The translations under genes and the position numbers were made by a program. The notes below the pieces were generated by a model. The model had not been told where the DNA came from and did not search any database. It saw only the letters and a list, made by a program, of their open reading frames with translations. A stretch of DNA of 64,000 nt from positions 78,719 to 142,718 of the forward strand of contig NZ_AOJE01000057.1 in NCBI RefSeq assembly GCF_000337915.1, written 5' to 3'. Shown here in pieces: positions 41,811 through 57,262 of this stretch. Within the stretch, counting starts at the first letter, position 1, and every line of letters begins with the position of its first letter. The DNA comes from Halorubrum saccharovorum DSM 1137 (GTDB taxonomy: Archaea; Halobacteriota; Halobacteria; Halobacteriales; Haloferacaceae).

Positions 41811-43481
41811 CTACCCGATCCCTGTCTCCTGCCGGAGCAATGTCAGCGTGTTCTGCGCCGTTACAACGGGTTCACGATCGTACACACCACCATTCTCACA
41901 CTGAAACAGCATATCGATCCCGCGCCAGATCGAATACAGGAGACACGCAAACGCGAAATAAAAGAATCGCAGCACGAAATCTTTCGACGTTGTCGCTGCC
42001 ATGAACCGCTTGATCGACTTGTAGCCTCGCTCAATGTCCCAGCGTTTCCCATATTCTGTGATGGCGCTGGGGTCGCCGTTGGTCATAAACACGGCGTACT
42101 GCCCGTGATCCGTCCGGTCTGAGTTCTTCTTTCGACGGTACTGGAGCGTCGTCTCGTGCCACTCGTTGTTGCCCAGATGGAGTTTGCGGTCGGTGACGTA
42201 GCGGTCTTGGTCGCGCTGAAGCAATCGTTTGGCCTGAGCTTTCTCGCTGGTGTGCATCCGCTTTGGCACAACATACGTGACGCCCCGGTCGGCTATCGCT
42301 TCGAGAATATGCTGGCTGTCGAACTCCCGGTCCATGAACACGCGGTCAACGTCGACAAGCCCCATTGCCGAATCGAGGAGATCCTCGACGATCTCTAGGC
42401 GGGTGTCACCCTTCCGGATGGGACGTGCGTCGAGAACCAGTGGTACGGAATCACCGACGAGCTGGACGGTCGCCCACTGATAGGCGTACTCGGCGGTCTT
42501 CTCTTTCGTGCCGATAATCTTGTCTTCGTGGCCCGTCCGGTCACCGGTGAACGGGTCGGCTTCCGTCGTGTCGATAGCGATACAGCTACGCTGGTACAGG
42601 CTTCGCATCTGGGCCGTCCGATTGACGAGTCGCTGGGCAGCCTCGCGATACATCTCACGGATGCGCTCGATAGACAGGGATCGTATCTGGTCTCGATGAT
42701 TATGGCCGAGAGGCGTCCGCTCGCGTGTCGTGTCGTAGCGGAAGCTGCGGGCGCCCTCATTGGCAGCGAGGTTCTCTTGAAGGCCGAGATACGTTTGAAG
42801 ATTCCAAAACGCGTTCTCGTGGATAGCACAACCACTCGCGCGGTCGAGCGAAAACACCGGATAGACGAGGTGGCTGACGTGAGTTGTGAGCTGTTGTTTG
42901 CGCTCGAACGCAGATGGGCCGGTCGTCTCGTCGTCATCGGTCTGGCGACGCGGAATTGTACGCGGCGGGGTGCGTGGAACCGAGACCCCAGCGTCGGACG
43001 CCTTGAAGAGGATCGTCCGCGCGGCAGTTTCGATACACTCGCGGAGGTCGGAGGTGAACCGATAGTGCCAACTCCGCCAGAGCGTCGACTGGTCGGGCAC
43101 AGTCTCGAACCCGAGGCGACGGCGGAGAGAGGGTCGGTCTCCCAGATACGAGCAGAGTGCCGTTTCGTGGTCCCACCCGTAGAGTTCCTTGAGGAGAAAC
43201 CCCCGGAATAGCGCCTTCATCTCGTAGGTCGTACTCCCAGCGTAGCGATCGTGAGCGTCGAATTCGACGTAGGCTAGTGGCCAGTGAGCGACGAACGCTT
43301 CGATAGAGTCGTGGGCGTCGTGGTCAAACCAGACGGTCGCGAGGACCCGGACATCTTCAGCAAGGCCGGTTGTTGAACTCCGGTCGTAGAGGGGCGTCGC
43401 ACGATAGGCTGGCCAGTCGTAGTAGGACGTCTGGGCGATGCGACGGTACACAGCACGTCGAGAGGATCGTGTCGGTGTCAT
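41811..43481 (-). CDS. IS4-family transposase
   Basis: 556 residues. Catalytic residues are Asp in CIAIDTTEADPF, Asp in VFMDREFDSQHI and Glu in the closing segment YGKRWDIERGYKSIKRFM. That segment fits the IS4 signature Y-x2-R-x3-E-x6-K exactly. The N-terminal DUF772-like part (YEMKALFRGFLLKELYGWDH) recognises the ends. The gene is uninterrupted and of full length, so the element may be active. I could not find its terminal inverted repeats by eye. Confidence 0.85.
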   Translation of the reverse strand: MTPTRSSRRAVYRRIAQTSYYDWPAYRATPLYDRSSTTGLAEDVRVLATVWFDHDAHDSIEAFVAHWPLAYVEFDAHDRYAGSTTYEMKALFRGFLLKELYGWDHETALCSYLGDRPSLRRRLGFETVPDQSTLWRSWHYRFTSDLRECIETAARTILFKASDAGVSVPRTPPRTIPRRQTDDDETTGPSAFERKQQLTTHVSHLVYPVFSLDRASGCAIHENAFWNLQTYLGLQENLAANEGARSFRYDTTRERTPLGHNHRDQIRSLSIERIREMYREAAQRLVNRTAQMRSLYQRSCIAIDTTEADPFTGDRTGHEDKIIGTKEKTAEYAYQWATVQLVGDSVPLVLDARPIRKGDTRLEIVEDLLDSAMGLVDVDRVFMDREFDSQHILEAIADRGVTYVVPKRMHTSEKAQAKRLLQRDQDRYVTDRKLHLGNNEWHETTLQYRRKKNSDRTDHGQYAVFMTNGDPSAITEYGKRWDIERGYKSIKRFMAATTSKDFVLRFFYFAFACLLYSIWRGIDMLFQCENGGVYDREPVVTAQNTLTLLRQETGIG

Positions 43482-43612
43482 CGGACAGCGCTACTGTAAC
43501 CGACGACAAAAGCTACTTTGGTGAAACACCCACTCGACAGTGCTCAATACAGCACCTGCGTGGATTGACGCACAACCCGGCCAGTAAAGTGTAGTGTGAG
43601 CGAACGACCACT

Positions 43613-43957
43613 ATGCGACGGTCTATTCGGTACGCCCTCTCGACGGTTGTCGGTCTGGGAGTGATGACGCCGGTGGTAATTGTCGGTGGCAGTAGCCTCA
43701 GCGTCCTCGTAGCGATTCCGTTCATATACGGGGCGACAACAGAGCTCATGCTCGACAATCTCACAAAATTTCAACAAACTATGCGTGGCGAGTCACGGAA
43801 GATAGGGATGATTGGCGCCGGTATCAGCGCTGGAAGCACAACCGGCCTGCTACAACAGTCAGTCGCAGTAGGAATTGTGGGATTCGGGCTATTCATTTTC
43901 GGCATAGCGCTGACCATCGCAGATCCTGTAATCGTTGTAGACCCTGACAGTCAGTAG
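43613..43957 (+). CDS. Small membrane protein next to an IS end relic
   Basis: 114 residues, four hydrophobic stretches (about 5-25, 28-45, 62-78 and 82-105), giving a compact membrane protein. I do not recognise it. Its stop is some 60 bases before a relic of the IS5-type right end (44019-44066), the same arrangement as the small membrane gene at 44744-44944. Confidence 0.55.
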   Translation: MRRSIRYALSTVVGLGVMTPVVIVGGSSLSVLVAIPFIYGATTELMLDNLTKFQQTMRGESRKIGMIGAGISAGSTTGLLQQSVAVGIVGFGLFIFGIALTIADPVIVVDPDSQ

Positions 43958-44018
43958 ACCGGTACGGCTCGCGGTAACGAGCTGTATTGAGTGTTAAATA
44001 CGCACCTTCCAACAACCA

Positions 44019-44066
44019 GTTGTTTCAGGCAAGAACCTATCTGAAGAAGAGGATTTCGACAGAGCC
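44019..44066 (+). repeat. Relic of the IS5-type element right end (1)
   Basis: Reads GTTGTTTCAGGCAAGAACCT ... GGATTTCGACAGAGCC and matches the right end of the intact element (46941-46989: AACTGTTTCAGGCAAGAATA ... GGATTTCAACAGAGCC) with few differences. No transposase gene lies to its left within range. Confidence 0.75.
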
Positions 44067-44139
44067 GAGCGTCATAAATCCAAACCGTTTTGATTGGGTA
44101 ATTCATCCTCTTATTTAACCGGCTGTTATAATCTCGCTT

Positions 44140-44649
44140 ATGAACCAATTCCAAATTCTTCCGGGAAATTGTGTGGTACATGATAACCATATCGAGATCG
44201 AAAGTAACAAAATCACTAGAGCTAAGCGTCTCCTGAAAAATAGCTATACACTACAAATAATTCTGTCAACAACAGCTCTCTATCTGATATTGTCTATTGT
44301 TTTTAATTCTAGTATATTTATCCGAGAAGTCGCGGTAAATGGCTTAGTTAGCGGTGTACTTTTAGGAGTCTTATTATTATCAGGAAAATACATTTACAAT
44401 AGGTATTTTGGAGTCTCTGACAAAACTAAAATTGAGCTTGGAACAATCCAACAGATCATCTTATCCAAATCAAATAAGATCGGTCACCCACACATGATCA
44501 TACAGTATCAGGAGAATGACTCTGAAAAACTCCGAGTAGTTCAATTGATGCCGACGTGGTCTAAGAGTGAAACAGGTACTCTATCAGATGTTGAAGATAT
44601 TTTAGTCCAAAATGGGTTGAATGTGAAATATCGTGAGGATCTTGAGTAA
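44140..44649 (+). CDS. Membrane protein of unknown function, AT-rich
   Basis: 169 residues. A soluble start of about 30 residues is followed by two or three helices (LQIILSTTALYLILSIVFNS, and VSGVLLGVLLLSGKYIYNR), then a beta-rich cytosolic part (MIIQYQENDSEKLRVVQLMP). Codon use is much richer in A/T than in the surrounding genes, a sign of foreign origin. It lies between two right-end relics of the IS5-type element. Function unknown. Confidence 0.6.
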   Translation: MNQFQILPGNCVVHDNHIEIESNKITRAKRLLKNSYTLQIILSTTALYLILSIVFNSSIFIREVAVNGLVSGVLLGVLLLSGKYIYNRYFGVSDKTKIELGTIQQIILSKSNKIGHPHMIIQYQENDSEKLRVVQLMPTWSKSETGTLSDVEDILVQNGLNVKYREDLE

Positions 44650-44743
44650 CTTTTTTTGACTTCAGCCGCGCAACCCCGGAAGTATCGACTGTAAATCGTT
44701 CAGTACAGGGAACGTATTTCCTATTGAAGTCAGTAATTGAAGT

Positions 44744-44944
44744 ATGAACGAGGTCCTCCGTTTCGACTTGGAGAATCCGTGGGTATACCTATTCACGAAC
44801 ATTGTTGTCTGGGTCGTAGTCGTTAGTACCATCCAAACGGTTCTCTTCGACGGTGAGTTGACTGGTGCGGTCATCAGGGGAACTGGCGGCGGTTTCGTTT
44901 GTGGAATTACGATGCTCTATCTCAGGAAAAAGGACTGGTTCTGA
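44744..44944 (+). CDS. Very small two-helix membrane protein
   Basis: 66 residues with two helices (VYLFTNIVVWVVVVSTIQTV, and AVIRGTGGGFVCGITMLYL) and a basic end (RKKDWF). It resembles small membrane proteins of prophage or plasmid DNA. Not recognised. It ends 30 bases before a second right-end relic (44975-45025). Confidence 0.5.
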   Translation: MNEVLRFDLENPWVYLFTNIVVWVVVVSTIQTVLFDGELTGAVIRGTGGGFVCGITMLYLRKKDWF

Positions 44945-44974
44945 CACATTCGGTCAATACGCAGTTCTCATTGA

Positions 44975-45025
44975 CAGGCTGTTTCAGACGATAATGTGTC
45001 TGAAGAAGAAGAGTTTAACAAAGCC
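44975..45025 (+). repeat. Relic of the IS5-type element right end (2)
   Basis: Reads CAGGCTGTTTCAGACGATAA ... GAGTTTAACAAAGCC. It keeps the GTTTCAG...TCTGAAGAAGA...AACAnAGCC pattern of the other copies, but is more diverged than the one at 44019. Confidence 0.65.
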
Positions 45026-45032
45026 ACAGAGC

Positions 45033-45524
45033 CTATTCTTCCTCTCTGGATGTCCGGAACGATTCTTTGAGCGCGTTTCGAAGAATGCTGTTATCTAATT
45101 CATGTTCTTCAATCCCCTTACTGGTTGCTCGGAATCCGATTCCCTCGTCGTTCAGAAAAGCAACAATGAGTGGGTAAAGTTCCTGACCCCTTTCTGTGTC
45201 CTGAATCTCATCTGGCACCTCTATCATATCATACGATACTTCACCGTTCTCGACTTTTTCTGGGTCTAGGCCAATCCACGTGGCTATCGCTTGATCGTCC
45301 TCGTTAGTATAGTGGCGGATAACTTGGTAGAAATCGAATGGATCTTCCGGACGTATACCGCGCTGAACGATAGATTCTGTCTCCTCGTATCCTCGTTCGC
45401 GTATTTTCTTGTCGAGATCTGCGAATTTTGTGGTATCGTAGACCCTCTCCAAGAGCATATCTCGTTTCTGCCCAACCACCTGCTGCCTCGAATTTCCACG
45501 ACCGTTTTCGTTATCCTTGCTCAT
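45033..45524 (-). CDS. Unknown soluble protein
   Basis: 163 residues, charged, no membrane segment. TKFADLDKKIRERGYEETES, IRHYTNEDDQAIATWIGLDP and a C-terminal EEHELDNSILRNALKESFRT give a mostly helical protein. I do not recognise it. It ends next to a right-end relic and starts 15 bases before the intact IS5-type element, so its upstream control region may have been separated by the insertion. Confidence 0.55.
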   Translation of the reverse strand: MSKDNENGRGNSRQQVVGQKRDMLLERVYDTTKFADLDKKIRERGYEETESIVQRGIRPEDPFDFYQVIRHYTNEDDQAIATWIGLDPEKVENGEVSYDMIEVPDEIQDTERGQELYPLIVAFLNDEGIGFRATSKGIEEHELDNSILRNALKESFRTSREEE

Positions 45525-45591
45525 TTTGTATTGCTATTCGGCTCTGTTGAAATCCTCAGAGAGTTACAGGTTCGTCCTGTAATTCGACGAG

Positions 45592-46413
45592 ATGAGCACC
45601 CTCCCAAAGTCACAGTTACTCCGATTTACAGAGAAGGCGATCAATCTGGCACGCCGAGCGGTTTCTCGATACTCTTCAAAATTCTCCAAACATCGTTATA
45701 CACTCCCACAGCACGTTGTTCTGCTGTGCCTCAAAGTTCGGAAGAATACGACCTATCGTGGCCTGCTTGACGAGTTGATCGAGATGCCACGCATCCGTCG
45801 TGTTCTTGGCTTAGTCGAACTTCCCACGCCATCAACGCTCTGTAAAGCGTTCAATCGGCTTGATATGGCCGTATGGCGTGTCTTATTGACCCTCTCAGCG
45901 ACGCTACTTCCGACAAGTGGCGTCGTTGGAGTCGATGCGTCAGGATTCGATCGTAGTCACGCCTCGAAACACTACACGAAACGAGCCGAACTCACGATTC
46001 AGCAACTCAAAGTGACTCTACTGGCCGATACGAGGGTGAACGCAATTATCGATTTACACGTGACGACGACACGAAAACACGATAGCCAGATTGCTCCGTC
46101 GTTGATCAAGCGCAATCTCGAGCATATTGACGTCCTGCTCGGTGACAAAGGGTACGACGACCAGAAAATCAGACGACTTGCCCGTCAACACGACGTTCGT
46201 CCACTGATTAAGCACCGTGAGTTTACATCGCTCCACAAGGCATGGAACGCACGCTTAGAGGCTAATCTCTACGGCCAACGAAGTCAATCCGAAACCGTCA
46301 ATTCAACACTCAAGCGGAAGTACGGTGCGTTCGTCCGCTCACGACGATGGTGGAAGCAATTCCGTGAGCTCACCATCGCCTGTCTCATTCACAATCTTGA
46401 CCGATCACTCTGA
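45592..46413 (+). CDS. IS5-type DDE transposase
   Basis: 273 residues, 52 bases inside the left end. Markers are LPTPSTLCKAFNRLDMAVWR, the first Asp in VVGVDASGFDRSHASKHYTK, the second in VLLGDKGYDDQKIRRLAR and the Glu in RSQSETVNSTLKRKYG. The gene is intact and ends SLIHNLDRSL-like (CLIHNLDRSL). With perfect ends and target duplication the element is probably active. Its N-terminal layout resembles the fragment at 901-1138. Confidence 0.92.
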   Translation: MSTLPKSQLLRFTEKAINLARRAVSRYSSKFSKHRYTLPQHVVLLCLKVRKNTTYRGLLDELIEMPRIRRVLGLVELPTPSTLCKAFNRLDMAVWRVLLTLSATLLPTSGVVGVDASGFDRSHASKHYTKRAELTIQQLKVTLLADTRVNAIIDLHVTTTRKHDSQIAPSLIKRNLEHIDVLLGDKGYDDQKIRRLARQHDVRPLIKHREFTSLHKAWNARLEANLYGQRSQSETVNSTLKRKYGAFVRSRRWWKQFRELTIACLIHNLDRSL

Positions 46414-46453
46414 CCGGTCAAGATAGTTTCCACACACTGTTCAGTCCAGACTA

Positions 46454-46855
46454 TTATCGGACAGTCACGAGACCCGCGAGAACGAGTAATGCACTATACG
46501 AAATCCCTAACAGCGGGGTGCTGAGACTGGAGGTCGAATCAATTGTGAGCCAGAGCGCAGTACCCAAGCAACTGAGCGCGACGAGTGAGCTGAAGATTTC
46601 GATACGACGTGGCTTGGCAGTCCCAGTACGGAATCGGCTATACAGAGCGTGTCCAAGCACAGCGATAGGGAAGACGCCTGCGACCACGACCGCGAAATGA
46701 ACTGCAACCACGCCTGCCATGTTGAGTGCTGGTATAATGTCTCTCATAAGTGTCCCAAGAGCGTATACTCCGAGCAACCCCACCAAGAGAACCGCAAGGG
46801 AACGTTCGACGCTACTGGCCGACGGACGCGGGAAGCGGGAAACCGTCTTACCCAT
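46454..46855 (-). CDS. Passenger membrane protein inside the IS5-type element
   Basis: 133 residues from ATG at 46855; the frame is open to a TTG at 46942, within the right end, and an ATG at 46882 is another choice. Four hydrophobic helices: SLAVLLVGLLGVYALGTL, GVVAVHFAVVVAGVFPIAVL, FSSLVALSCLGTALWLT, and LGISYSALLVLAGLVTV. No transposition role is known for such a protein. It faces the transposase gene tail to tail. Either a passenger carried as cargo or a chance capture. The family is not recognised. Confidence 0.6.
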   Translation of the reverse strand: MGKTVSRFPRPSASSVERSLAVLLVGLLGVYALGTLMRDIIPALNMAGVVAVHFAVVVAGVFPIAVLGHALYSRFRTGTAKPRRIEIFSSLVALSCLGTALWLTIDSTSSLSTPLLGISYSALLVLAGLVTVR

Positions 46856-46997
46856 GCTAAACTCTCTCGTCCAAAGCGTCATAAAGTCACCGTCAAGAAG
46901 CCGAGATACTCTATTGAATAGTTCGCAGTCCTCATCGGCCAACTGTTTCAGGCAAGAATATACCTAATGAATAGGATTTCAACAGAGCCTGCTATTC

Positions 46998-47475
46998 TAA
47001 AATTACAAGTGGTAGATACTAAATTGGTCCCCGTATCTGCTACGCTCGCAGACCAGTATACAACTCTACCGGATAGACGTGCGGTCGGCACGCAGACATA
47101 CTGAACGGGTGACTCACCCCCTACTGACGTCGAAGAGAAGGAATGCATCGGTTCCACCTTCTGAAGCTGTGACCATATACATTGAGATAGTTGGTCTCAT
47201 CTTCAGTTGGCCGAGCGCTGTCGATGGCGAGTCCCGCCCAGTCTGTCGCCATTCCCTAGAGGCAATTGGTATGGCTACTACAGGTGCTTTAGCAACTACG
47301 TCCAAGAACACGGAATCACAGACCATACTGCGAACCCCCCAGAGCGTCGACCCCTTCAAGATGACCACTATTGACGCCGCTCGGTCTCGAGATTAAGTAG
47401 AACCAGGTGGGGCCCCGTGACATCCAAGAGTCAGTGCAGGCCAGAATTTTTGCCCCTCTTTCAGAGTAGCCATTA
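46998..47475. other. Intergenic, no convincing gene
   Basis: About 480 bases after the IS5-type element. Overlapping short frames on both strands have no recognisable features and no promoter. I call none of them. Confidence 0.4.
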
Positions 47476-47476
47476 T

Positions 47477-48010
47477 CTGTTCCAGACATCTGTAACGTGA
47501 ATCTGTATCAGTGGACTAGGGAGGCCTTCTGGAGTATAGACCCACCATTCGCTACTTATAGATGTCCAGCACACATCAATTCCAGATAGGAGACTGTAGT
47601 ATGTGTCTGTAACAGATGTCTGTTCCTGAGATCAACTGAGACTACCTCCTACTGCACCCGTACGAGACTCAGCCTCAAACTTCTGTTATAGAGATCTATA
47701 ACAAAAACCTGTGTCAAGTATCTGTAACAGATACCTGTAACAGATATATCCCAGTTAGTCGCCCCAGACACACCCTCCAGATCGAACACCCCTTCAGTAC
47801 AGCCACCGGTTCCAGACAAACAAAACAGATAGGGATTACAGACGACTACTACAGACACTATTTTGGCGCACCACTCTACTCGCTATGATTGCGTCTTTAC
47901 AGCTGATATCCCTGTATCTTCACTACCACGCCACCAAGTACAGTTGGTTATTACAGATATCCGTTACAGATTATTGCCCCGAGTGTCTGACACAGATATA
48001 TGTAACAGGC
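47477..48010. repeat. Palindromic iteron array upstream of the partition genes
   Basis: Many full or partial copies of a 13-base palindromic unit ATCTGTAACAGAT. The clearest are at 47605-47618 (TCTGTAACAGAT), 47720-47733 and 47733-47746 (two in a row), and 47951-47972 and 47988-48008 (partial, with TTACAGATATCCGTTACAGA and CAGATATATGTAACAG). Degenerate ones are at 47478-47512 and 47682-47702. The array has no genes of its own, is AT-rich, and ends seven bases before the ParA start. It fits a plasmid centromere (parS) and/or operator bound by the partition DNA-binding partner. Confidence 0.8.
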
Positions 48011-48016
48011 GTTCAA

Positions 48017-49021
48017 ATGAGTGTGTGTATGATAACGACGGTCATCTATGCTGAGTCCGGGGGGACATACAAAACGACCATGACGGCGAATCTCGCGGTC
48101 GCGCTCAAGCGGATGGGGCTTGACGTCCTTGTGATGGACTTAGACCCACAGACAGGCAACCTCACCTCACTCTTCGACGTCGGAGAGAACCGTGGGGACC
48201 CGGATGCAGACAATCTCGTAAAGCACATTCTGGAAATGCCTGATGGCAACTTCGACGACCTCATCGAAACCTCTGAGGAGGGCGTCGACATCATTCCGAG
48301 CCACGATATGCTGGGGGACTTCACCTCCAATCTCGAACAGAAAATCTCCTACGAAACGGGGATGAAGGGGATCTCTCGGGACGAGTACCCCCGCTTCGAG
48401 CTCCTATACAATCTCCTCTGGGAGCGAGAGCAGTTGAACGAAAAGTACGACGCGGTCCTCATCGATCCTAACGCGCGCGCTGAAGACCTCCTTTACAATG
48501 CTATCTACGCGCTTCGAACACTGGTGGCGCCAGTTAAGCCGGCTGGGAAGGGGAGTCTCAGCCTCGATGGTCTCGAGGAGATGGTCGGAAACATGGAAAC
48601 TGCGCTGGACATCGAAATCGGGCTTTCGTGCGTGGTTCCATCCGGAGTCGGGCAGACGAACGCCCACAAGCAGTATCGCGATCAGTTCGAAAATACGGAC
48701 GCCTTCGCAACGCCAGTCTCTATCGGGTCACGAGAGAGTCTGATGGACGCTATGTGGGAAGCCCGTGGCTCTGCGTTCAAAGTAGTCGAAGAGCGGTGGA
48801 AGACATACGAGGAGGACGGTGAAATGATCACAGAGAAGGGGCCACGTAGAGTGCCCGACCGTGAGCTCGAGACCCTGAAGAAGCTATGGCAGCTGGCGGG
48901 GTTCATTGCGACGGAGACGTTCGACGTCGACATCAACGATGAACTCGTCCTGGACATCGACGACTACGGGACCGAGACGGTGCGGTTCGACCTCACGACT
49001 GAACCGGAGGTGGCTGACTAA
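48017..49021 (+). CDS. parA: ParA-type plasmid partition ATPase
   Basis: 334 residues from ATG at 48017; ATG at 48029 is equally possible. The deviant Walker A site reads YAESGGTYKTTMTANLAVAL with Lys19. The first, signature Lys of KGGxxKTT is replaced by Ser. Walker A' has DVLVMDLDPQTGNLTSLF and the later AVLIDPNARAEDLLYN. It is longer than typical ParA, with a C-terminal extension. It moves plasmid copies apart by cycling on the nucleoid. It is followed with a one-base overlap by the likely partner gene and preceded by the repeat array. Confidence 0.92.
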   Translation: MSVCMITTVIYAESGGTYKTTMTANLAVALKRMGLDVLVMDLDPQTGNLTSLFDVGENRGDPDADNLVKHILEMPDGNFDDLIETSEEGVDIIPSHDMLGDFTSNLEQKISYETGMKGISRDEYPRFELLYNLLWEREQLNEKYDAVLIDPNARAEDLLYNAIYALRTLVAPVKPAGKGSLSLDGLEEMVGNMETALDIEIGLSCVVPSGVGQTNAHKQYRDQFENTDAFATPVSIGSRESLMDAMWEARGSAFKVVEERWKTYEEDGEMITEKGPRRVPDRELETLKKLWQLAGFIATETFDVDINDELVLDIDDYGTETVRFDLTTEPEVAD

Positions 49022-49527
49022 TGGGGGGCGATTCATTCAAATCCGGGTCAGGGAACCTCAACTTCGGAGACAGCGAGGAGGAAAAAGCAGATGACGAAGC
49101 AGAGGAAACCGGTGACGTCGCGAACGAAGAAGCAGATGATCAGGAACCCGAGGCAGCCACCTCTGCCGAAGTAGACGAACGCCGGACCTCCCCAGGAGCG
49201 AAGGATGCGGACAGTACCGGCGAAGAGAGCACGACGACCACCTCGACGGCCAGCGATACCGGAGCACACCAGACGGGTGGCCATCAGTATCCGTACTTCG
49301 TGCGTCGGAGTAACGTCGGGGACGAACGAGACAACCGGCTCGAACTGTTCGCTCGCGATGAAGTCGTCTCCCGAGAAGCGGAGTTTCGCAGCCAACTCGC
49401 TTCGGAGCTAGGGACCGATGATATCGCGAAGACGGACGCCCGTGAGTATGCGCTTCTCGCTGCGTTCGACAACGTGGAAGACGTTGCAGAACTCATGAGA
49501 GGAGACGGGTACGGCGAACTCGATTAG
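49021..49527 (+). CDS. Partition partner protein (ParB-like role)
   Basis: 168 residues. The first 90 are disordered and very acidic (EEEKADDEAEETGDVANEEA and a Thr-rich run). A short C-terminal domain has HQYPYFVRRSNVGDERDNRL, then FRSQLASELGTDDIAKTDAR and EYALLAAFDNVEDVAELMRG. I see no ParB nuclease or HTH signature. Overlap with parA (A of TAATG shared) and small size mark it as the centromere-binding adaptor, as in other archaeal partition operons with a non-ParB partner. Confidence 0.75.
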   Translation: MGGDSFKSGSGNLNFGDSEEEKADDEAEETGDVANEEADDQEPEAATSAEVDERRTSPGAKDADSTGEESTTTTSTASDTGAHQTGGHQYPYFVRRSNVGDERDNRLELFARDEVVSREAEFRSQLASELGTDDIAKTDAREYALLAAFDNVEDVAELMRGDGYGELD

Positions 49528-49714
49528 CGGCTGTTTTCGTTCCCTCACTCTAGAACCGTTGAGGTTTCACTCTCCGTCCCCCAAGGTGGCGCATACTCGA
49601 TGGGAGACTTCGACGGCGTTTGATATATACAGACGAGTCATTCAGTAGGAGAGTTCTGAGTGGTGGAACTCAGCCAGAGCCGCTCTACCCAGTCCTCTAG
49701 TAAGGCTTTTAACG

Positions 49715-49734
49715 GTTACCGGATTATTGGTAAC
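49715..49734. promoter_or_regulatory. Operator palindrome at a leaderless promoter
   Basis: GTTACC-GGATTATT-GGTAAC is a perfect 6-bp inverted repeat, six bases ahead of the ATG at 49741 and just downstream of a TATA-like CTTTTAA. A repressor here would cover the transcription start. The product of the gene it precedes is the natural candidate. Confidence 0.6.
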
Positions 49735-49740
49735 TGCCAG

Positions 49741-50415
49741 ATGTACGAGGTTCTCGACGACACGGCGGCGCAAATCATCCTCGCTATCGAGAGTGGTGAC
49801 TCCATCCGTCGTGTCGCCCAACACCTCCACACGCCGTACGAGACGGTGAGACAGGCCGTTAACCGACTCGAAGACGCAGGCTACGTCACCTATGACGACG
49901 GCCTCTCAGTCGTCGATGACCACGTGAGAGACGCAGCACGAGAGCTCGTCGCTGCCAGCGCCGGCGTCAGTCCACCATCCATCGAGGAAGCCTACGTCAT
50001 CCCACAGTTCGGTGACTGGCCGTTCGCATTTACACGGATCGACGCCGTCTACGTGTGGACCCAAGGCGGCTACCAAGTTGGTCGCGAGCCCGACGACTAT
50101 CCGCTGTTCCTTGCTGTTCGTGAGCAAGACGTCGACGCCTGGGAGACGTTTTTCGAGTCGTTCGGCCTCCCTACCGCATTTGACCGACAGCCCCGAGACG
50201 AGTTGGACGGACCGCTACAGATCGTCCTCGAGCCACGCGCGTCCCTCGATATCGAGCACGTCGAAGGGTACCCGGTGATCCCGAGAGCAGAGACAATCGA
50301 GTATATGCGCGAGAACTACGCCCAGTTCCAGTCGGGGCTGGCGATGCTCGACCGGATGTACGAAGACCTCGACCTCGGCGTCACGTACCGGGAGACGGAA
50401 CGGGCCCAAAGGTAG
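49741..50415 (+). CDS. Winged-helix protein with C-terminal unknown domain
   Basis: 224 residues from ATG at 49741. MYEVLDDTAAQIILAIESGD, then RRVAQHLHTPYETVRQAVNR and LEDAGYVTYDDGLSVVDD form a winged helix. The rest is a domain of about 140 residues with FGDWPFAFTRIDAVYVWTQG and DYPLFLAVREQDVDAWETFF, which may be a ligand or nucleotidyltransferase-like fold. I cannot name it. It looks like a plasmid-encoded regulator. The palindrome at its start suggests autoregulation. Confidence 0.75.
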   Translation: MYEVLDDTAAQIILAIESGDSIRRVAQHLHTPYETVRQAVNRLEDAGYVTYDDGLSVVDDHVRDAARELVAASAGVSPPSIEEAYVIPQFGDWPFAFTRIDAVYVWTQGGYQVGREPDDYPLFLAVREQDVDAWETFFESFGLPTAFDRQPRDELDGPLQIVLEPRASLDIEHVEGYPVIPRAETIEYMRENYAQFQSGLAMLDRMYEDLDLGVTYRETERAQR

Positions 50416-50529
50416 GCTTCAACGGTAGAAGTGACGCGCTCATCGAATCGCTCGAGTAATTCCTTAAGAGGGCCACGAGTCCGTTCTTGTCGGTAGCTAT
50501 GCTTTCTCAGCGTTCAAGAGTGGAAGGAG

Positions 50530-53379
50530 TCACGCACGGTATGTTCGGACCATCTCTCTGAGATCGGATTTGCTGAGATGGGTGATCCTGCGTCGGTTAC
50601 CATCATCGGTGTAGAAAATCGAAGCAGAGACCGACCGATCCGGATATTGGTCGGCAACGACGTGGTAATAAATACTGAGCTGTTTCTCGTATTCGTCTTC
50701 GGCGTGGGTGGTGAGGTCAGTTTTGTAGTCGATGATATCGACCTGGTCAGGCGTAATATGGAGCAAGTCGATGATCCCACCGATCGTCACCTCCTTGTCA
50801 TCGACAGTCAACGGAAGGAACGCATCGATTTCGGCTTTCTTCTCGCCATCGAGTGAATCTAAGAACTTCTTCACATTCTCTTTATCAGTGTTGCCGTCGG
50901 TGTCGACAGCCTCCTCGAGCACATACCTCTCTGCGAACTCGTGAACTTCCGACCCAAATTCCATCCCTCGACCACCGGTGTCTCCTTCGAACACGGCATC
51001 GTCGATGAACGTATGCGGGGAGTAGCTTGCTGGCCCATCAGGATCCGGAATGTCAACGGTAAACGGTGAAGACTCGTTGTCTACTGCGCTGAAGGACGAC
51101 AGATCTGGATCGACTGTTTCGATATTAACGGGGAGTTCGTCGAGGAACACATTTGGATTCTCACCGCCGGTTAGAATGACGTGGCTCTCAGCACGCGTAA
51201 TAGCCACGTAGAGCAGTCGGCGTTCCTCATCGTAGTTCTGGGAGAGACACTTATTGAGAACGTCTGTCTGCCAGTTGTCGTAGACGTGTGGGACATCGTG
51301 AGCCTCCTCAGAGTACACCTTTCTCTGTCGGAGTCCGATTGGGTCTGTGTACGCGATATCGCTCCCGCTGCCACTGGTTGATGGGAACTTGTTCGTGTTC
51401 ATATTCGCGAGGATGACAATCGGATATTCGAGCCCTTTCGTTGCGTGGATGGTCTGAACAGTCACCGCATTCGTCCCCGCACCAGCGTCTACCTCGTGGG
51501 TACTACCATCTTCGATCGCCGCTTCGATGAACTGAATCAGTTCTCCACGGGTGAATGTTGTCGTCCCATAGACGGACTGGACCGTGTCAAGGACGACATC
51601 CGCAGTTGGGCCACTCCGGTCGTACCGATCGAACACGCGACGGGCGACACCCCCGAATGTCTCCATCTCTCGGAGCTCTTCGCGGAAGGCAACCATCGCG
51701 TCAGGGTATGCGTCGCGGTCGATGATCGCTTTCACCTCGTCGATTGTGTACCCGGCCTCCTCTAAGACGAGCGCCCAGCCGCGATCGGCGTTACGTTCGA
51801 GGATCCGAAGCCACGCTAACAGTAGCTTTGCGGCGTCCGTTCGGAACACCTCAATGCCACCTTCATACGCCATCGGGAGGTCGTACGCGTTCGCCGTGTC
51901 GAGTAGGTCCCGGCCGAAATCGCGAGTCCGGGTCAAAACGGCGATATCGCCGTATTTCGGCGCGCGGTACTCGCCGTCATCACCCTCAACGGCGTAGTCA
52001 TCATTGTCGACGATGTCGTCGATTTTCGCGAGAATCGCCTCGTGTTCATCCTCACTCGTGAGCGCCTCGATACGGCTCTCGTCATGGTCTGTGTCCGCCT
52101 TCAACCGTGTGACCGCCTCGGAGATTGCCTCAACATCGAGTAACTCACTGTTCGTCGCACGAGCCGTCAGCGCCTGTGTCGAGAACCGTAGGATAGATTG
52201 GGTCGACCGGTAGTTCCGTGTCAGTTGTTTGCTGGCAGCTGTCGTCGTCGGGAATGTGACGCGATCTGCGTCCCGATTCAGCTCTTCGGCGAACCGGTCG
52301 AGTCGCTCGTCGAACTCTCGGATGTTGTCGACGTCGGCGTATTGGAAGCTGTAGATGCTTTGCTTCCAGTCACCGACCACACAGATATTCTCTGTGCCGG
52401 CCAGAAGAAGCATGAGTTTGAACTGGATCTCACTAGAGTCCTGGAACTCGTCAACCATCACATACTCGTAGCCCAGTCGATCTCGAAGATCGTGGTCTTC
52501 ACACAGAAGGACGAACGCAAACAGCTGAAGGAACCCGAAGTTCAGGTAGTTCCGTCGAAGCGCAAACTCAAGGTAGGCGTGATACACATCGTGGACGAAC
52601 TGCTTGAGTGCTGTTCGATCGTCCTCGAAAACGCGTCCAGCGACATCCGCTGGAATCTGTTTGCCGTTCCCGCGAAGCTCCCATCTCTCAGGTGCCTCTG
52701 GGAGGTAGGTCTTCTCTTTCCCATATTTGCTGAGCTTCGACCGGAGCTTCGACTGCTTGCTGCCACCGTTTCGAGGTTGATTTATATCGGCGAACAGCGT
52801 CTCGAACGCAGCAAAGTCACCGTCGAGGTGTGACTCACCGTCGCGGTACCAGCCGGTTGCGGTGGGAAACACACCCTTCGCAGATAGCTCTTTGATGAGA
52901 TTGAGTAGTTCTGTCGTCTCCGAAATCGCTGTGAAGAACTCGTTGTACTCAGGGTGCGAGTCGATGAACTGGCCGATGAACTCTCGAAACAGCGCCTGTT
53001 CGATGATGTCGTCTTCGATGATCCGCGTTGAGCCGGTGATCGTCTCCTCCACGCCGAGATATGTCGGAGCATCATGGCCGTGTTCGTCGAGGATATCATG
53101 CGCCAACGAGTGGAACGTCTGGATTGGGGCGTTCGAGAGCTCCCGCATTCCGTACTCGCTGTTCCGCACAATCCGGTCGCGCATCTCCTCGGCAGCGTTG
53201 TTCGTGAATGTGACCAACAAGACGTCGGACGGAGCAATCCCATCCTGTTCGACGATATTCGCGTATCGGCGGGTGACGGTGAAGGTCTTCCCAGTGCCAG
53301 CGCCCGCATCGACGAGGTACAGGCCCTCGATCGCGTTAATGAGTTCGCGCTGTTCCGGATTCGGTTCGATGTCGCTCAT
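50530..53379 (-). CDS. UvrD/AddA-like helicase-nuclease
   Basis: 949 residues. SF1 helicase motifs: Q/Walker A NPEQRELINAIEG ... VDAGAGTGKTFT (about 7-34), motif Ia LLVTFTNNAAEEM, motif II YVMVDEFQDSS (about residue 315), motif III VVGDWKQSIYSFQ, motif IV QLTRNYRST, motif V QTIHATKGLEY, motif VI LLYVAITRAESH. The C-terminus has a RecB-type nuclease (GRGMEFGSEVHEFAERYV, then VDIIDYKTDL). Together with the next gene (ATGA overlap) it forms an AddAB-like pair for processing DNA ends, either for recombination or as a defence system. Confidence 0.9.
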   Translation of the reverse strand: MSDIEPNPEQRELINAIEGLYLVDAGAGTGKTFTVTRRYANIVEQDGIAPSDVLLVTFTNNAAEEMRDRIVRNSEYGMRELSNAPIQTFHSLAHDILDEHGHDAPTYLGVEETITGSTRIIEDDIIEQALFREFIGQFIDSHPEYNEFFTAISETTELLNLIKELSAKGVFPTATGWYRDGESHLDGDFAAFETLFADINQPRNGGSKQSKLRSKLSKYGKEKTYLPEAPERWELRGNGKQIPADVAGRVFEDDRTALKQFVHDVYHAYLEFALRRNYLNFGFLQLFAFVLLCEDHDLRDRLGYEYVMVDEFQDSSEIQFKLMLLLAGTENICVVGDWKQSIYSFQYADVDNIREFDERLDRFAEELNRDADRVTFPTTTAASKQLTRNYRSTQSILRFSTQALTARATNSELLDVEAISEAVTRLKADTDHDESRIEALTSEDEHEAILAKIDDIVDNDDYAVEGDDGEYRAPKYGDIAVLTRTRDFGRDLLDTANAYDLPMAYEGGIEVFRTDAAKLLLAWLRILERNADRGWALVLEEAGYTIDEVKAIIDRDAYPDAMVAFREELREMETFGGVARRVFDRYDRSGPTADVVLDTVQSVYGTTTFTRGELIQFIEAAIEDGSTHEVDAGAGTNAVTVQTIHATKGLEYPIVILANMNTNKFPSTSGSGSDIAYTDPIGLRQRKVYSEEAHDVPHVYDNWQTDVLNKCLSQNYDEERRLLYVAITRAESHVILTGGENPNVFLDELPVNIETVDPDLSSFSAVDNESSPFTVDIPDPDGPASYSPHTFIDDAVFEGDTGGRGMEFGSEVHEFAERYVLEEAVDTDGNTDKENVKKFLDSLDGEKKAEIDAFLPLTVDDKEVTIGGIIDLLHITPDQVDIIDYKTDLTTHAEDEYEKQLSIYYHVVADQYPDRSVSASIFYTDDGNRRRITHLSKSDLREMVRTYRA

Positions 53380-55961
53380 TGTTCACCCTCCAAGAGCAAA
53401 TCACGATTATCCACCCGCCGGTAATTCGGCTCGCCGGCAAGTCCCTCAATGGGAAACGGCTCGTCACCTGTACGACGTCGGTTGAGCTCTGTCAGTCGCT
53501 CCTCAACAAACGACTCAAACGCATCCAAGTCAGGTTTAAAGAACGCACCTTTCTGTTGGCGGGCGATTTCCCGCATAACCTGTTTGCTCCCCGTCTTTAC
53601 GTACTTGTACTCTCCAATCTCTGCCTCGAGTCGTTCAATCATCGTCCGGCCGAACTCTGACTCGATGAGTTCGTCGCTGTCAGTTGTCTCAACGAGTGGT
53701 GCGGCATCGAAGAGAGCAGCGTACGTCTGATAGTCGATCTTCGAGAGAATCTTCTGGCACTTGTTCGCCCCCTCCTCACGAAGGTACTCGAAGAACTCCT
53801 CTGTTCGGACGTGATCTGTGAGAGATCCGGGATAGTACGTCACCGTCGTCAGCGCGTCGTCGAGATCGATGTCACCGGCGATGGCGTCGTCGACGAGTTC
53901 AGTGACGTAGAAGAACGTGAACGAGAGCTGTTGAGCGGGCGTTTGTGAGCGCCAGTAGGTGAGATATAGCAATGCTTGGAAATCCGGTTCGTCGGATGGT
54001 TCGTCAATCGCGGCGTCTTGGACAATTGAATTGGCGTCGTTCTCACTCCCGCTTTTGTAATCCAGCAGCTCGGTTTGCGACTGGACAAGGTCGATCATTC
54101 CGTTGATACCACGATCCTCATCAACAAACCGGCGTTCAGTTACCGGCGACGCGATATCGTACCCGAAGTAGTCGGCAATCGCGTTCTCAGTACTGCTGGA
54201 GGGCGTGAGGAACGCTCCGTCTTTCGGGGGGTTGTCGTCGAGGTACGAGACGATTGTTTCGAGGCTTAGACGGTACTCAGTCCGGCGAGTCTGTTCATCA
54301 ACGGAGCGGATCAGCGGACGGACTTCATCAAGCATGAGGTCAACGACTTCTGTCAGCGCCGCGTCGTCGACGACCGCAGGATGGGTGACATAGAACTCCG
54401 CAAAGTCATGGAACAGGTTGCCTTCGGTGAGATACTCTTTCTCTGGGCCATCGACGATCCGGCTGAAGTAGTAGTCTCGGGGTGAGTTCACGTAGGTGTT
54501 GAGACTCGACTTACTGATCGTCTCGACTGGGTCAGGAGACACGTCAACTGACTCTGTGTTGAATACAGCCCCATAATGTGGTTCAGATCGGAGTTGATGG
54601 GTGGTAGACGGCAGTTCTGAGAAACGATCGTATTCTCGTTCAAGGAGCTCTTCGAAGTACAGACACGGGGTAACCGGCGATCCGCCGGTTGCATCCTGAA
54701 CGAGATAGTGTTGTTGGCTCCCGCTCTGTAACAGCAACTGGAAGCTCTTGAGATTCCGCGTGAACTGAGCATCCTGATCAACCCATGGACGACGCGGTGC
54801 CGAGTGAGTCCACCGATCATCAAGGCCAAGATAGAAGACAACCTCACGACCGACGTATGATGCCGACTTCGCGTCGGCGAGCAGGACGCCTTCGTTATCC
54901 CGATCAACAGGGACCTCATACGTCTGTAGATAGAACGACAGCTCGTCGAGGCGCGCCTCCGTAACAGGCTCGTCGGCGATACCAAGCTCATTTAGCTCCG
55001 CTCGAAAGGCATCAAGCGTGTCGTCGGCACGGTGTTCGAACGCCGAGAGCGCGTCCGAAAACGTGTACTCCTGAATCTCGTGACAGAAGTCGATCAGCCA
55101 CGAAAGGTCACCATCATCGAGTTCGTGGAGCCGCTTGTCCGCCTCACGGTCGGTAACATCGCAGTCAAAAGCTGTCAGTAGCGACCGAATTTCGCTGATC
55201 CGGGTGTCAGTTCCTCGGTGGGCAGTCCGGAGGAGATGAAGGAACAAGCGGTGTTCGCTGCGATCAGTAAAGCCTGGTCCGCCGAAAAATGGGATGTCTG
55301 CTGCCTCGAATGCGGACTCAATGAGCGGCGAGTACTCGCTTTCCTGATCGAGGACAATCCCGACGTTTTCGGCGTTTGTCTCGGTGACCGCATTCACCAC
55401 CGTTTCGATGATCGCTGTCGGTGAATCATGGATCCGAAACGGGGGCAGCTCAAACTCTGTGTCGGCAAAGAGACTGACCGTATCGTACTCAGTAGGCAGA
55501 TACGCTCGTTCGAGTTGCGTGAGCATCTCCGGCTCGACAACGACCACATCGAGATCCGAATCGATAGTGTCGTTCGTGAGCTTCATCGAGGCCGTCTCAA
55601 GGTCACCGATTCTCTCAACTGCGCGTTCGGTGGCCTCGTCGATGTAGGCGTCGTACTCGAAAATAGCCTCGTGAGATCCTTGGTGTTCCCAACACTGGAG
55701 GATATTCCCGACTGCGTAGGCACATCGTTTCCACGAAATATCTTCATTTGCGATCATGCCGAGAAACGCGAGGCGGTCCTCAGATTCTTGCCGGCGACCG
55801 ACCGCAAGGCGACGTGGGGGTATAGCAAACGGACCGAGGTGTGACCGATCAAGCTGGCGGTTGAGGGCACTCGCGAGCGGTCCGTCTGGAGTAATCACCC
55901 GGTCGTACGATTTGACTTCGTCGTAGAGTTGACGGGATGATTTTGCGCGGGGAAATGGCAC
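53376..55961 (-). CDS. AddB-like nuclease subunit
   Basis: 861 residues, first gene of the pair and overlapping the helicase start by four bases. The first 500 residues resemble an inactive helicase fold of the AddB type: ITPDGPLASALNRQLDRSHL, TNAENVGIVLDQESEYSPLI and REVVFYLGLDDRWTHS. From about 530 a RecB-type nuclease is seen: ISKSSLNTYVNSPRDYYFSR, GNLFHDFAEFYV, INGMIDLVQSQTELLDYKSG (motif D...DYK). I see no intact Walker A. It is the likely second nuclease/Chi-type scanning subunit. Not a standard haloarchaeal chromosomal gene in my memory. Confidence 0.8.
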   Translation of the reverse strand: MPFPRAKSSRQLYDEVKSYDRVITPDGPLASALNRQLDRSHLGPFAIPPRRLAVGRRQESEDRLAFLGMIANEDISWKRCAYAVGNILQCWEHQGSHEAIFEYDAYIDEATERAVERIGDLETASMKLTNDTIDSDLDVVVVEPEMLTQLERAYLPTEYDTVSLFADTEFELPPFRIHDSPTAIIETVVNAVTETNAENVGIVLDQESEYSPLIESAFEAADIPFFGGPGFTDRSEHRLFLHLLRTAHRGTDTRISEIRSLLTAFDCDVTDREADKRLHELDDGDLSWLIDFCHEIQEYTFSDALSAFEHRADDTLDAFRAELNELGIADEPVTEARLDELSFYLQTYEVPVDRDNEGVLLADAKSASYVGREVVFYLGLDDRWTHSAPRRPWVDQDAQFTRNLKSFQLLLQSGSQQHYLVQDATGGSPVTPCLYFEELLEREYDRFSELPSTTHQLRSEPHYGAVFNTESVDVSPDPVETISKSSLNTYVNSPRDYYFSRIVDGPEKEYLTEGNLFHDFAEFYVTHPAVVDDAALTEVVDLMLDEVRPLIRSVDEQTRRTEYRLSLETIVSYLDDNPPKDGAFLTPSSSTENAIADYFGYDIASPVTERRFVDEDRGINGMIDLVQSQTELLDYKSGSENDANSIVQDAAIDEPSDEPDFQALLYLTYWRSQTPAQQLSFTFFYVTELVDDAIAGDIDLDDALTTVTYYPGSLTDHVRTEEFFEYLREEGANKCQKILSKIDYQTYAALFDAAPLVETTDSDELIESEFGRTMIERLEAEIGEYKYVKTGSKQVMREIARQQKGAFFKPDLDAFESFVEERLTELNRRRTGDEPFPIEGLAGEPNYRRVDNRDLLLEGEQ

Positions 55962-56359
55962 AACACGTGGAGTCGGCGGTATCGGTTAAATCTTTGTTAC
56001 GATCTCATCCACTCTGAGTATCTGTGATTCCCTCGGGTTCTCACATAGAAATCGCTCCTCGAAATGGTAGTGATCGCTAACAATCTGGCTCCTTTGAGAA
56101 CCGTTGATCGGGTTAATGGGACCGAGTTCTGGATCACTCGAGGTAGTATATAAATAGCAGAGGTTTGAGAAATAATTCGAAAAGGGCTTCCTTCTCAACA
56201 CAGTTGGGATGAGCTGGCCCGTGCTGAAGAAATCATAAAGGCAATCGTTCTGTTGAAAACCTCTGTAAATGTCACAGATGATGTCTTGGATATAGCGCGC
56301 GTATCTCACAAGGAAGCGCTTCGGAAAACCACCTGATCAGTTCGGTCAGTACAGGTGAT
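55962..56359. other. Intergenic, no convincing gene
   Basis: About 400 AT-richer bases. A 107-codon minus frame has no features. A 48-codon plus-strand tail at about 56190-56335 (WDELARAEEIIKAIVLLKTS) looks protein-like but has no start, and may be the end of a lost gene. Otherwise only the promoter of the nuclease/helicase operon is expected here. Confidence 0.4.
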
Positions 56360-57031
56360 TCAGTTTCCGTTCGTTTGGGTCCAGTTGATCACCTCAACCT
56401 CATCGTGAGACTCTAAACCAGTTTCAACGCCCTGATGGTGACCCTTCCCTATGACAATACAGGCGGAATCTACAGTGTTAGCTTCACTAAGTATCTCATC
56501 GACCATTCTCTTTTCTCGCTCCTCGTTAATTTGGTAAAGCATAGCGAACAGCAGGATTACACCAATAAGTAGCAACAATAGCCCCGAAAGAAGTACTCCA
56601 CCGATAGAAGGGAACAATCGCCAAAATATCGTCGGAATCAAAATGATTGTTCCCCAATTCAGCAGACCATATGATATTGGGTGTTCATCGATTGGAGTTG
56701 CTGAATAAAACGTGTCTATCTCTTGGATTGTTGCGCCATGTTGGTCAGCAACTTTTCGCATTATAACTCTGTCTTGGCCAAATTCTCCACGGGTGGCGAT
56801 AGCCACAATCCTCCCGATGAATCTCATAACGATGAACAAATGAATGAACGCTACAAAGGCAATCAACGGGGCTAATGGGGCAATTCGGATAGTACGTCTG
56901 AGTGTTTCTACCGTGTCTGATTCACCCCCTTCACCAAAAACGACTTCGGGAGACTCAACGTGCTGGTTGATCGCATTAACGCGCTTGGTGACGTTGTCGA
57001 TATGTTTTCCTGACGAGATATACACTTGCAT
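56360..57031 (-). CDS. Membrane protein with a TraB-like tail
   Basis: 223 residues. Hydrophobic helices at about 50-75 (APLAPLIAFVAFIHLFIVMR) and three from about 120 to 165 (WGTIILIPTIFWRLF, and GVLLSGLLLLLIGVILLF). The C-terminal DSACIVIGKGHHQGVETGLE resembles the VVGxGHxxG segment of TraB/PrgY proteins. The family is uncertain. It starts 180 bases from a right-end relic of the IS5-type element and points away from it, the same geometry as the passenger gene in the intact element. Confidence 0.55.
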   Translation of the reverse strand: MQVYISSGKHIDNVTKRVNAINQHVESPEVVFGEGGESDTVETLRRTIRIAPLAPLIAFVAFIHLFIVMRFIGRIVAIATRGEFGQDRVIMRKVADQHGATIQEIDTFYSATPIDEHPISYGLLNWGTIILIPTIFWRLFPSIGGVLLSGLLLLLIGVILLFAMLYQINEEREKRMVDEILSEANTVDSACIVIGKGHHQGVETGLESHDEVEVINWTQTNGN

Positions 57032-57210
57032 ATACGTTGCTGAGTCGGGCTAAGACGAAATAAGATGCTGGGTGGGGGGATATAACTGACCAAGCTGCCG
57101 CCCAGCTCCGATCAGCTCCCTATCTAACAGTCACGCTGTGTACTTTCACGCCCGAATCAAACCGCCGCTCTATGGCACATTGACTAGTTGACGATATACA
57201 ACTCTCATCG

Positions 57211-57262
57211 CAAGGCTATTTTAGACGGAGATTTGTCTGAATAATATTATTTCAATAGAGCC
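57211..57262 (+). repeat. Relic of the IS5-type element right end (3)
   Basis: Reads CAAGGCTATTTTAGACGGAG ... TTATTTCAATAGAGCC, sharing TTTnAGACG...TGTCTGAA...ATTTCAAnAGAGCC with the copies at 44019, 44975 and 46941. It ends just upstream of the KAP-type gene. Confidence 0.65.

Follow-up and report, generated by a model that had tools for sequence, protein, structure and literature searches.

The window, a 64,000-nt stretch of Halorubrum saccharovorum DSM 1137 (contig NZ_AOJE01000057.1, positions 78,719 to 142,718 of the forward strand), carries at 45540..46989 (+ strand) a complete IS5-type transposon of 1,450 bp that resembles the insertion sequences (ISs) ISHla2 and ISHxa2 and contains one cargo gene. 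The 16-bp terminal repeat GGCTCTGTTGAAATCC is found at both ends, and the 8-bp target duplication TGCTATTC lies just outside, at 45532..45539 and 46990..46997. The left end, classed as type LA, consists of the terminal repeat and a conserved subterminal part (45540..45609, +; nhmmer E = 3.2e-21 with a profile that includes this very end, in a cluster of 53 ends). The transposase gene (45592..46413, +; 273 aa) is followed directly after its stop codon by a conserved box (46414..46426, +; consensus about CGGTCAATACAG, recognized by eye in related loci), which forms the left border of a cargo slot. The slot holds a gene in the opposite orientation (46454..46942, -), which encodes 162 aa as an open reading frame (ORF) with four transmembrane (TM) segments predicted by a hydropathy rule. 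This protein belongs to no known family, without a match in Pfam or NCBIfam, and was matched in 3 of 52 same-genus genomes: the window genome, one at 99%, and one partially (64% over 42 residues). Its ORF start lies inside the type RA right end (46921..46989, -), and the true start is therefore probably internal. The right-end match (nhmmer E = 2.9e-19) is partly circular, as this end is among the 37 ends, all from elements with target duplications, that make up the profile.

The transposase matches PF01609 (1.2e-16) and the IS5 model NF033579 (2e-62, 211 bits against a cut-off of 140), and is assigned to the IS5 family, DDE type; no IS6 model was among its seven NCBIfam matches. The Y(2)R(3)E(6)K signature is a DDE-type feature of IS5 and occurs as YGQRSQSETVNSTLK at residue 227. 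An 8-bp target duplication is a feature of the ISH1 group of the IS5 family, and is present in the window element as well as in the collected elements described below. The signature is not specific to IS5, since PMC2266710 gives it as a hallmark of the IS4 family. With one transposase and two ends, the window element differs from a composite transposon, in which cargo lies between two full IS copies; like a transporter IS, it and others of its kind hold a non-transposition passenger gene inside the ends.

A sequence-only reading of this DNA had noticed four right ends of one IS5-type element, each adjoining a small membrane-protein gene, and suggested that such ends mark elements which pick up and swap cargo. 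Our analysis confirmed the arrangement. The right-end profile matched at 44066-43998, 45025-44957, 46989-46921, and 57262-57195 (outermost base first; the right end spans about 60-68 bp), and the neighboring genes starting at 43613, 44744, 46454, and 56360 encode proteins with 3, 1, 4, and 3 TM segments, respectively. The proteins are mutually unrelated (best BLASTP E = 0.11 between any two of five window proteins), and a transposase is kept only by the copy at 45540-46989. The search for left ends and duplications divided the four copies: end 46989 has both (left end 45540, TGCTATTC), and the three copies without transposase have neither in intact form and look like relics lacking intact left ends.

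All 1,450 bp of the window element were found 100% identical on plasmid pCBA1230-02 of Halolamina sp. CBA1230, at another target site with the duplication ACATCCTC. Two further loci (L064 and L256 in our numbering) contain the same transposase and cargo next to matching halves of a duplication ATAATTTC, which suggests a third site of the element, probably interrupted by another IS. L064 was at one stage considered a cargo swap (transposase DNA identical at 822 of 822 positions, sequence different 48 bp past the stop), and this was not counted because the L064 tail and the L256 head look like an inverted-repeat pair with the ATAATTTC halves.

Family ends and elements in halobacterial genomes

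In the 3.42-Mb genome of the window organism, a 15-bp end with up to 2 mismatches was found at 58 sites (some doubled by scaffold joins), compared to none for the reversed pattern. Two more elements with transposase (proteins 91 and 92% identical to that of the window) carry other cargo in the slot, a membrane protein in one and a Tat-type (twin-arginine translocation) lipoprotein in the other. Units without transposase and with one gene each are flanked by perfect duplications (for example C25:7707-8075, C57:63727-64203, and C57:64325-64697) or by duplications with one mismatch (C62:22999-24241 and C50:7627-8891). At C57:63630-65329 the arrangement is nested, with two cassettes that have their own perfect duplications inside an older lipoprotein cassette. 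Two C57 copies are partly assembly constructions, because ends are doubled beside a single N in that scaffold. By eye, doubled ends around a single N were seen at C57:15100-16807, C57:156235-158041, C56:89, and C28:38557. Halves of one duplication, AGAAATCG, are found at C57:156235 and C56:89, and halves of another, GTTCTATC, at C28:38557 and C57:158041, which suggests joins other than those of the scaffold.

The exact 17-bp end was present in 194 of 292 Halobacteria genomes, and the reversed control in none. A transposase scan gave 237 relatives, of which the best 80 loci were kept; 77 of them have a left end no more than 120 bp upstream of the transposase (the exceptions are L080, L096, and L143). 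The first sample consisted of the window, 27 stretches of its own genome (a few overlapping), and these 80 loci, in which ends spaced 100-4500 bp apart were paired. Among 132 end pairs, 48 had perfect 8-bp duplications and 4 had one mismatch, against 0 and 1, respectively, in a control with the right flank shifted by 4 bp; left ends and duplications, which three of the window copies lack in intact form, thus exist elsewhere in the family. Removal of one exact duplicate left 51 elements. The second sample was not chosen by transposase and consisted of 100 regions at first-listed places of the 17-mer (a few at contig starts were omitted). Its 91 end pairs gave 31 perfect and 9 one-mismatch duplications, and the control none at either level; 40 elements resulted, 19 of which match the transposase over at least 500 bp. 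The two samples overlap partly and have some genomes in common. Together the samples yielded 91 elements with an 8-bp duplication, which is perfect in 78 and has one mismatch in 13; a transposase (at least 500 bp matching) is present in 58 and missing from 33, so that transposase-less relatives, also postulated from the window, do exist. Phage records gave no match to the transposase. Seven IMG/VR viral stretches (L247-L253) contain the exact 17-bp end.

These duplications bear on the simplest alternative, that ordinary IS copies landed by chance beside membrane genes and that the genes are host DNA. Such an account would fit three of the four window copies, which are without an intact left end or duplication. 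Against it, dozens of elements have perfect 8-bp duplications outside the cargo, and the same element with the same cargo occupies different sites in two organisms. We consider chance landing very improbable, and for complete elements we rejected it because the target duplications lie outside the cargo. The data indicate that the element inserts as a unit, making 8-bp target duplications. We estimate at about 0.8 the probability that these elements form a widespread haloarchaeal family of cargo-carrying IS5-type transposons.

The ends were classed by simple clustering into LA (53 ends, beside the transposase), RA (37), RA2 (17 plus 3), RA3 (6), L' (13 plus 4), B12 (18), B9 (13), and a few others. 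LA is paired with RA in 20 of the 91 elements, with RA2 in 15 elements with transposase and 1 without, and with RA3 in 6. Two pairings are free of transposase, L' with RA (13/13) and B12 with B9 (12/12), and the remaining pairings are rarer. Cross-class pairs were also found inside duplications, namely LA with B12 (4, of which L110 and L147 are near relatives) and LA with L' (2), together with the pairs RA with RA (1), L' with L' (1), and RA with RA2 (2). That ends of different classes share a duplication points to exchangeable ends. In six loci (L074, L079, L080, L090, L104, and L143) the right end shares its duplication with an outer left end located upstream of the transposase, and the transposase's own left end is still inside the unit in L074, L079, L090, and L104. 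The box after the transposase stop also occurs within L' ends, and the sequences diverge beyond the box (by eye). In L070 the left box is repeated at short intervals, again by eye.

The slot was measured in 57 elements with near full-length transposase, which include the scaffolded copy C57:156325 without a duplication in place. From the transposase stop to the right end it is 206-2451 bp long (median 710, none below 150) and is never empty (57/57). The longest ORF downstream of the transposase is convergent with it in 38 elements, parallel in 17, and absent in 2.

Transposase-less cassettes and cargo content

Of the 33 transposase-less elements, 29 contain an ORF of at least 50 aa, and with IS-type repeats, a passenger gene, and a target duplication they correspond to mobile insertion cassettes (MICs). 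One of the 33, L167, keeps a transposase fragment; other transposases in these elements were sought with one IS6 and one further IS5 query only. The description of miniature inverted-repeat transposable elements (MITEs) as short and non-coding applies to few, as only 4 of 33 lack such an ORF, and these measure 124-125 bp in three cases and 327 bp in one. The three short ones (L135:5780-5904, L154:4859-4983, and L162:5164-5287) have the family terminal repeat and 8-bp duplications, and in genome G063 three end pairs are listed with the same spacing. IS6-family transposases occur within the units L143:2244-5620 and L099. The left end of L143, GGCTCTGTTGAAATGGCGG, looks IS6-like, and a perfect 8-bp duplication pairs it with an IS5-type right end.

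The family transposase probably mobilizes in trans the derivatives that keep cargo and two ends but no transposase, as judged by their common ends, the same duplication length, and the occurrence of identical copies at different sites. The cassettes, chiefly those with B12 and B9 ends (for example L040:8630-10329, L044:16872-18168, L049:7627-8891, L202, L239, L240, L241, and others), could instead be moved by another transposase, for example from the archaeal IS6 or another IS5 group with similar terminal repeats. All 12 B12+B9 elements are without transposase, and no autonomous partner of their own was found among the fetched regions; Table 5 of PMC6807381 lists IS6 elements of archaea that have GG ends and make 8-bp duplications; and an IS6-family transposase adjoins the GGCTCTGTTGAAAT end of the L143 unit. 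We regard this alternative as unlikely, given that four elements combine an LA transposase with a B12 end and have duplications, and that RA ends are common to elements with transposase and to cassettes.

In genome G065, assembled in few contigs, two identical copies of a 462-bp cassette lie at different sites, and one of them has the perfect duplication GTTTCGTG. The same genome has three ISHla2 copies of 1,193 bp that are 99.9-100% identical and carry an ORF with two TM segments in the slot, and a 1,804-bp end-bounded unit with a family transposase and a 233-aa PGF-CTERM protein, the latter without a matching duplication. In PMC10544981, Hlac_3088 of Halorubrum lacusprofundi is described as a virus-induced PGF-TERM surface protein and a transposon passenger, expressed above the S-layer protein at one infection time point and proposed to hinder virus attachment. 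We infer from this description and the rough position that the 233-aa cargo of G065 is Hlac_3088. The published transposon and the G065 unit are alike in carrying a PGF-type passenger, and the absence of a matching duplication sets the G065 unit apart.

For the analysis of cargo content, the longest ORF outside the transposase was taken as the main cargo and its membrane type was called by the hydropathy rule. An ORF of at least 50 aa was present in 86 of the 91 elements, and the main cargoes were classed as proteins with two or more TM segments (34), lipoprotein-like (11), one TM segment (5), Tat (1), and soluble (35). The preference for membrane genes expected from the window was borne out: 51 of 86 cargoes are membrane, lipoprotein-like, or Tat proteins, compared to 19.4 expected from length-matched neighboring genes (948 called; standard deviation [SD] 3.9, maximum 35 in 2,000 draws). 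The non-soluble fraction was 7/10 in the own genome, 23/38 among transposase-selected and 21/38 among end-selected elements, or 35/57 with and 16/29 without transposase. We concluded that the cargo, as classified from sequence, is biased to membrane proteins and lipoproteins. The 35 soluble cargoes limit this statement.

A neutral or mutational origin of the bias, in which short hydrophobic genes are tolerated or easily captured without benefit, would be in line with a weaker enrichment for longer cargo (32 of 57 at 100 aa or more, against 15.3; SD 3.3, maximum 30). The enrichment survives length matching and also the merging of homologous cargo into 80 families (48 non-soluble against 18.0; SD 3.7, maximum 31 in 5,000 draws), and one PGF-CTERM cargo resembles the published virus-induced passenger gene; we hold the neutral origin to be rather unlikely. 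Surface genes that are repeatedly useful against changing viruses or brines would be another, speculative, source of the bias.

Pfam search of 27 chosen cargo proteins placed 18 above a cut-off and 9 not. The types found were DUF7387 with HicA toxin, bile acid:sodium symporter family, BrkB, seven-TM histidine kinase, metallo-beta-lactamase fold, two GNATs, luciferase-like, RDD, AsnC-type helix-turn-helix, redoxin, IlvD, thioredoxin, O-methyltransferase, maltose acetyltransferase, SnoaL, and alpha/beta hydrolase. Among 10 chosen cargo proteins, a comparison with the defense families of PADLOC matched PDC-S31 for L241 (8.7e-15, about 50 residues) and, marginally, PDC-M43B for a histidine kinase cargo (0.0095); the other 8 had no match.

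Cargo turnover and relation to known systems

Cargo swapping had been proposed from the window, and near-identical transposases beside unrelated cargo bear it out. Among 31 element pairs with transposase DNA at least 93% identical, 25 had no cargo DNA match; some elements enter more than one pair, so the pairs are not independent, and at least 2 of the 6 matching pairs are probably a single copy retrieved twice. In three pairs both flanks are conserved and the sequence changes abruptly at the slot. For L103 and L206, the identity is 97.4% as far as the transposase stop, 98.3% over the final 60 bp, and 28% in the adjoining 50 bp; the corresponding values are 93.6, 91.7, and 30% for L102/L112 and 95.9, 91.7, and 50% for L102/L108. 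Conversely, cargo may be common to divergent transposases, as in L079/L206 (transposase 72.8%, cargo 89.6% over 462 bp), L080/L108 (80.0%, and 87.6% over 209 bp), and L090/L143 (73.4%, and 69.8% over 616 bp). Three cassettes matched 52/52, 52/52, and 51/52 same-genus genomes, and among the matches listed nearly all hit the ends and few the cargo. Natrialba aegyptia has two ilvD copies with 74% identity, one of them as cargo. Taken together, these comparisons indicate that cargo turns over far faster than the mobility parts, and the elements appear to move passenger genes within and between species. The interpretation offered in the sequence-only reading is largely supported.

The fixed parts of the element are the left end with the 273-aa DDE transposase, the short box past the stop, and the right end, and the slot between the box and the right end holds one or a few passenger genes. 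In the mechanism that we propose, capture may occur when the transposase pairs any two outward-facing family ends, taking along the DNA between neighboring elements. Swapping may occur when copies recombine homologously through their conserved left and right portions, which would exchange their cargo.

Several observations weigh against this picture. Mobility is deduced from sequence, and a duplication with up to one mismatch was the selection criterion and is not an independent feature within the collection. Rates are not population estimates, given the choice of the best 80 loci, the first-listed sites, and the shared genomes. Cargo was at times miscalled; for L102 the choice fell on an antisense ORF in place of the thioredoxin gene. 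In four element pairs the main cargo is identical, and at least two of these pairs probably represent a single copy that was retrieved twice. L099 and L143 contain IS6-family transposases whose terminal repeat is similar, and these enzymes could act as well. In G065, 21 end pairs gave 2 perfect duplications and 3 with 2 mismatches, the lowest in the control being 3; none of the three ISHla2 copies there has a matching duplication, and two share one flank, which suggests recombination. Finally, two pairs with similar transposases, L102/L139 (94.5%, and 63.3% in the last 60 bp) and L088/L201 (97.9% and 48.3%), have different right ends in addition to different cargo.

The last two pairs favor capture without swapping, that is, one-time pickup through a wrong end, repeated independently by many diverging lineages. 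Right ends of a foreign class in L088, L110, L131, and L147 point in the same direction. One-time capture fits poorly with L103/L206, L102/L108, and L102/L112, in which the cargo is replaced between flanks that are 92-98% identical, and we view it as rather unlikely. A dedicated, integron-like exchange of cassettes at the post-stop box and a matching motif in the right end would explain why different elements show abrupt borders at the same two positions; the left slot border GGTCAATACAG and the inner right border GATCAGTTCGCAG are also partly alike and in the same orientation. This likeness was judged by eye only and ordinary recombination accounts for the same borders, so we rate a dedicated system as quite improbable and retain capture combined with homologous exchange.

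ISHla2 (pHLAC01 of Halorubrum lacusprofundi) and ISHxa2 (Halopiger xanaduensis) are annotated as IS5-like in RefSeq, and their transposases are 90.8 and 92.3% identical to that of the window. The RefSeq annotation names the transposase alone and leaves the passenger as hypothetical. The closest known kinds are the IS231/MIC231 cassettes and the transporter ISs of bacteria. MIC231 and modular IS231 of Bacillus cereus (PMC3913671, PMC2266710) likewise comprise transposase-less units with IS ends, duplications, passengers, and modularity. IS231 belongs to the IS4 family and has its extra DNA between the left end and the transposase, whereas here it lies mostly between the transposase and the right end. 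Mobilization in trans is reported for MIC231 and is indirectly deduced here, and the haloarchaeal family differs in being archaeal, in its many cargo families, and in the bias to membrane proteins and lipoproteins. Transporter ISs (PMC3129680) are likewise IS copies with passengers unrelated to transposition; in the haloarchaeal elements, unlike these, the slot is filled in 57/57 and cargo is exchanged between copies. The MITEs of Haloquadratum walsbyi (PMC3119063) likewise have terminal repeats and duplications, contain no transposase, and are stated to depend on a trans-acting one, but four of their five families are non-coding and one, ISH2-type, has an ORF. Tn3-derived inverted-repeat miniature elements (TIMEs; PMC4133298) are similar as short non-autonomous ends that mobilize DNA segments, and differ in belonging to the bacterial Tn3 family and in making duplications of 5-6 bp.

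A term search of a 2024 review of prokaryotic MITEs (PMC10969869) returned neither cargo, passenger, nor haloarchaea, and the accessible part of PMC8563766 gives IS counts, with nothing found there on passengers. Our literature searches, which left subscription literature and ISfinder outside, gave no account of cargo exchange in this family, and its novelty is thus provisional. As a tentative idea, to which we give rather less than even odds, haloarchaea may share a transposable pool of envelope genes, in which a widespread IS5-type module with a slot and end-sharing transposase-less cassettes repeatedly exchange genes for small membrane proteins and lipoproteins, with many of these altering contact with viruses or neighbors. 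Such a pool, if real, would parallel the integron cassette pool of bacteria, with transposition as its route. A cargo-exchanging family would help to explain the patchy distribution of small membrane-protein and lipoprotein genes across haloarchaeal genera, and would place passenger exchange, known from the IS231 cassettes of Bacillus, on a wide scale in archaea. In practice, a gene between two family ends is likely to be mobile cargo. For orphan proteins, the family points to roles at the cell surface that could be tested, virus exclusion among them.

Decayed copies and other features of the window

The first relic ends with a type RA right end at 43998..44066 (-; nhmmer E = 2.4e-17), and a probable cargo gene of 114 aa with three TM segments lies at 43613..43957 (+). 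The second has its RA end at 44957..45025 (-; E = 7.1e-16) and a cargo gene of 66 aa with one TM segment at 44744..44944 (+), in a region that is homologous to L077 and L090 in inverted order. The third ends at 57195..57262 (-; E = 6e-11), next to a probable cargo gene of 223 aa with three TM segments at 56360..57031 (-). The TM segments of all three proteins were predicted by the hydropathy rule. The inner left-end box is preserved only as weak remnants, at 43532-43553 (E = 0.5), 44697-44717 (E = 0.32), and 56340-56363 (E = 0.007), and the end-pair search gave no partner for ends 44066, 45025, and 57262 that produces a duplication with up to one mismatch. A degraded left-type end of the B12/B9 class (56249..56309, +; E = 2.4e-6) likewise makes no such duplication with end 57262.

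The segment 44067..44723 (+) appears to be former cargo: it is 94% identical to the DNA behind the L077 transposase and 92.5% identical over 588 bp to L090, and the homology to L077 starts at the base right after right end 44066. A fifth membrane gene, of 169 aa, is located between the first two right ends (44140-44649). We read this area as a pile of old cargo. A second, longer transposase (41811-43481; 556 aa, PF01609 and DUF772) adjoins the first relic and may have truncated it. Further downstream, 50530-55961 is occupied by an adjacent gene pair that encodes a UvrD-type helicase with a PD-(D/E)XK nuclease domain and a second PD-(D/E)XK protein, which we take to resemble an AddAB-like pair.

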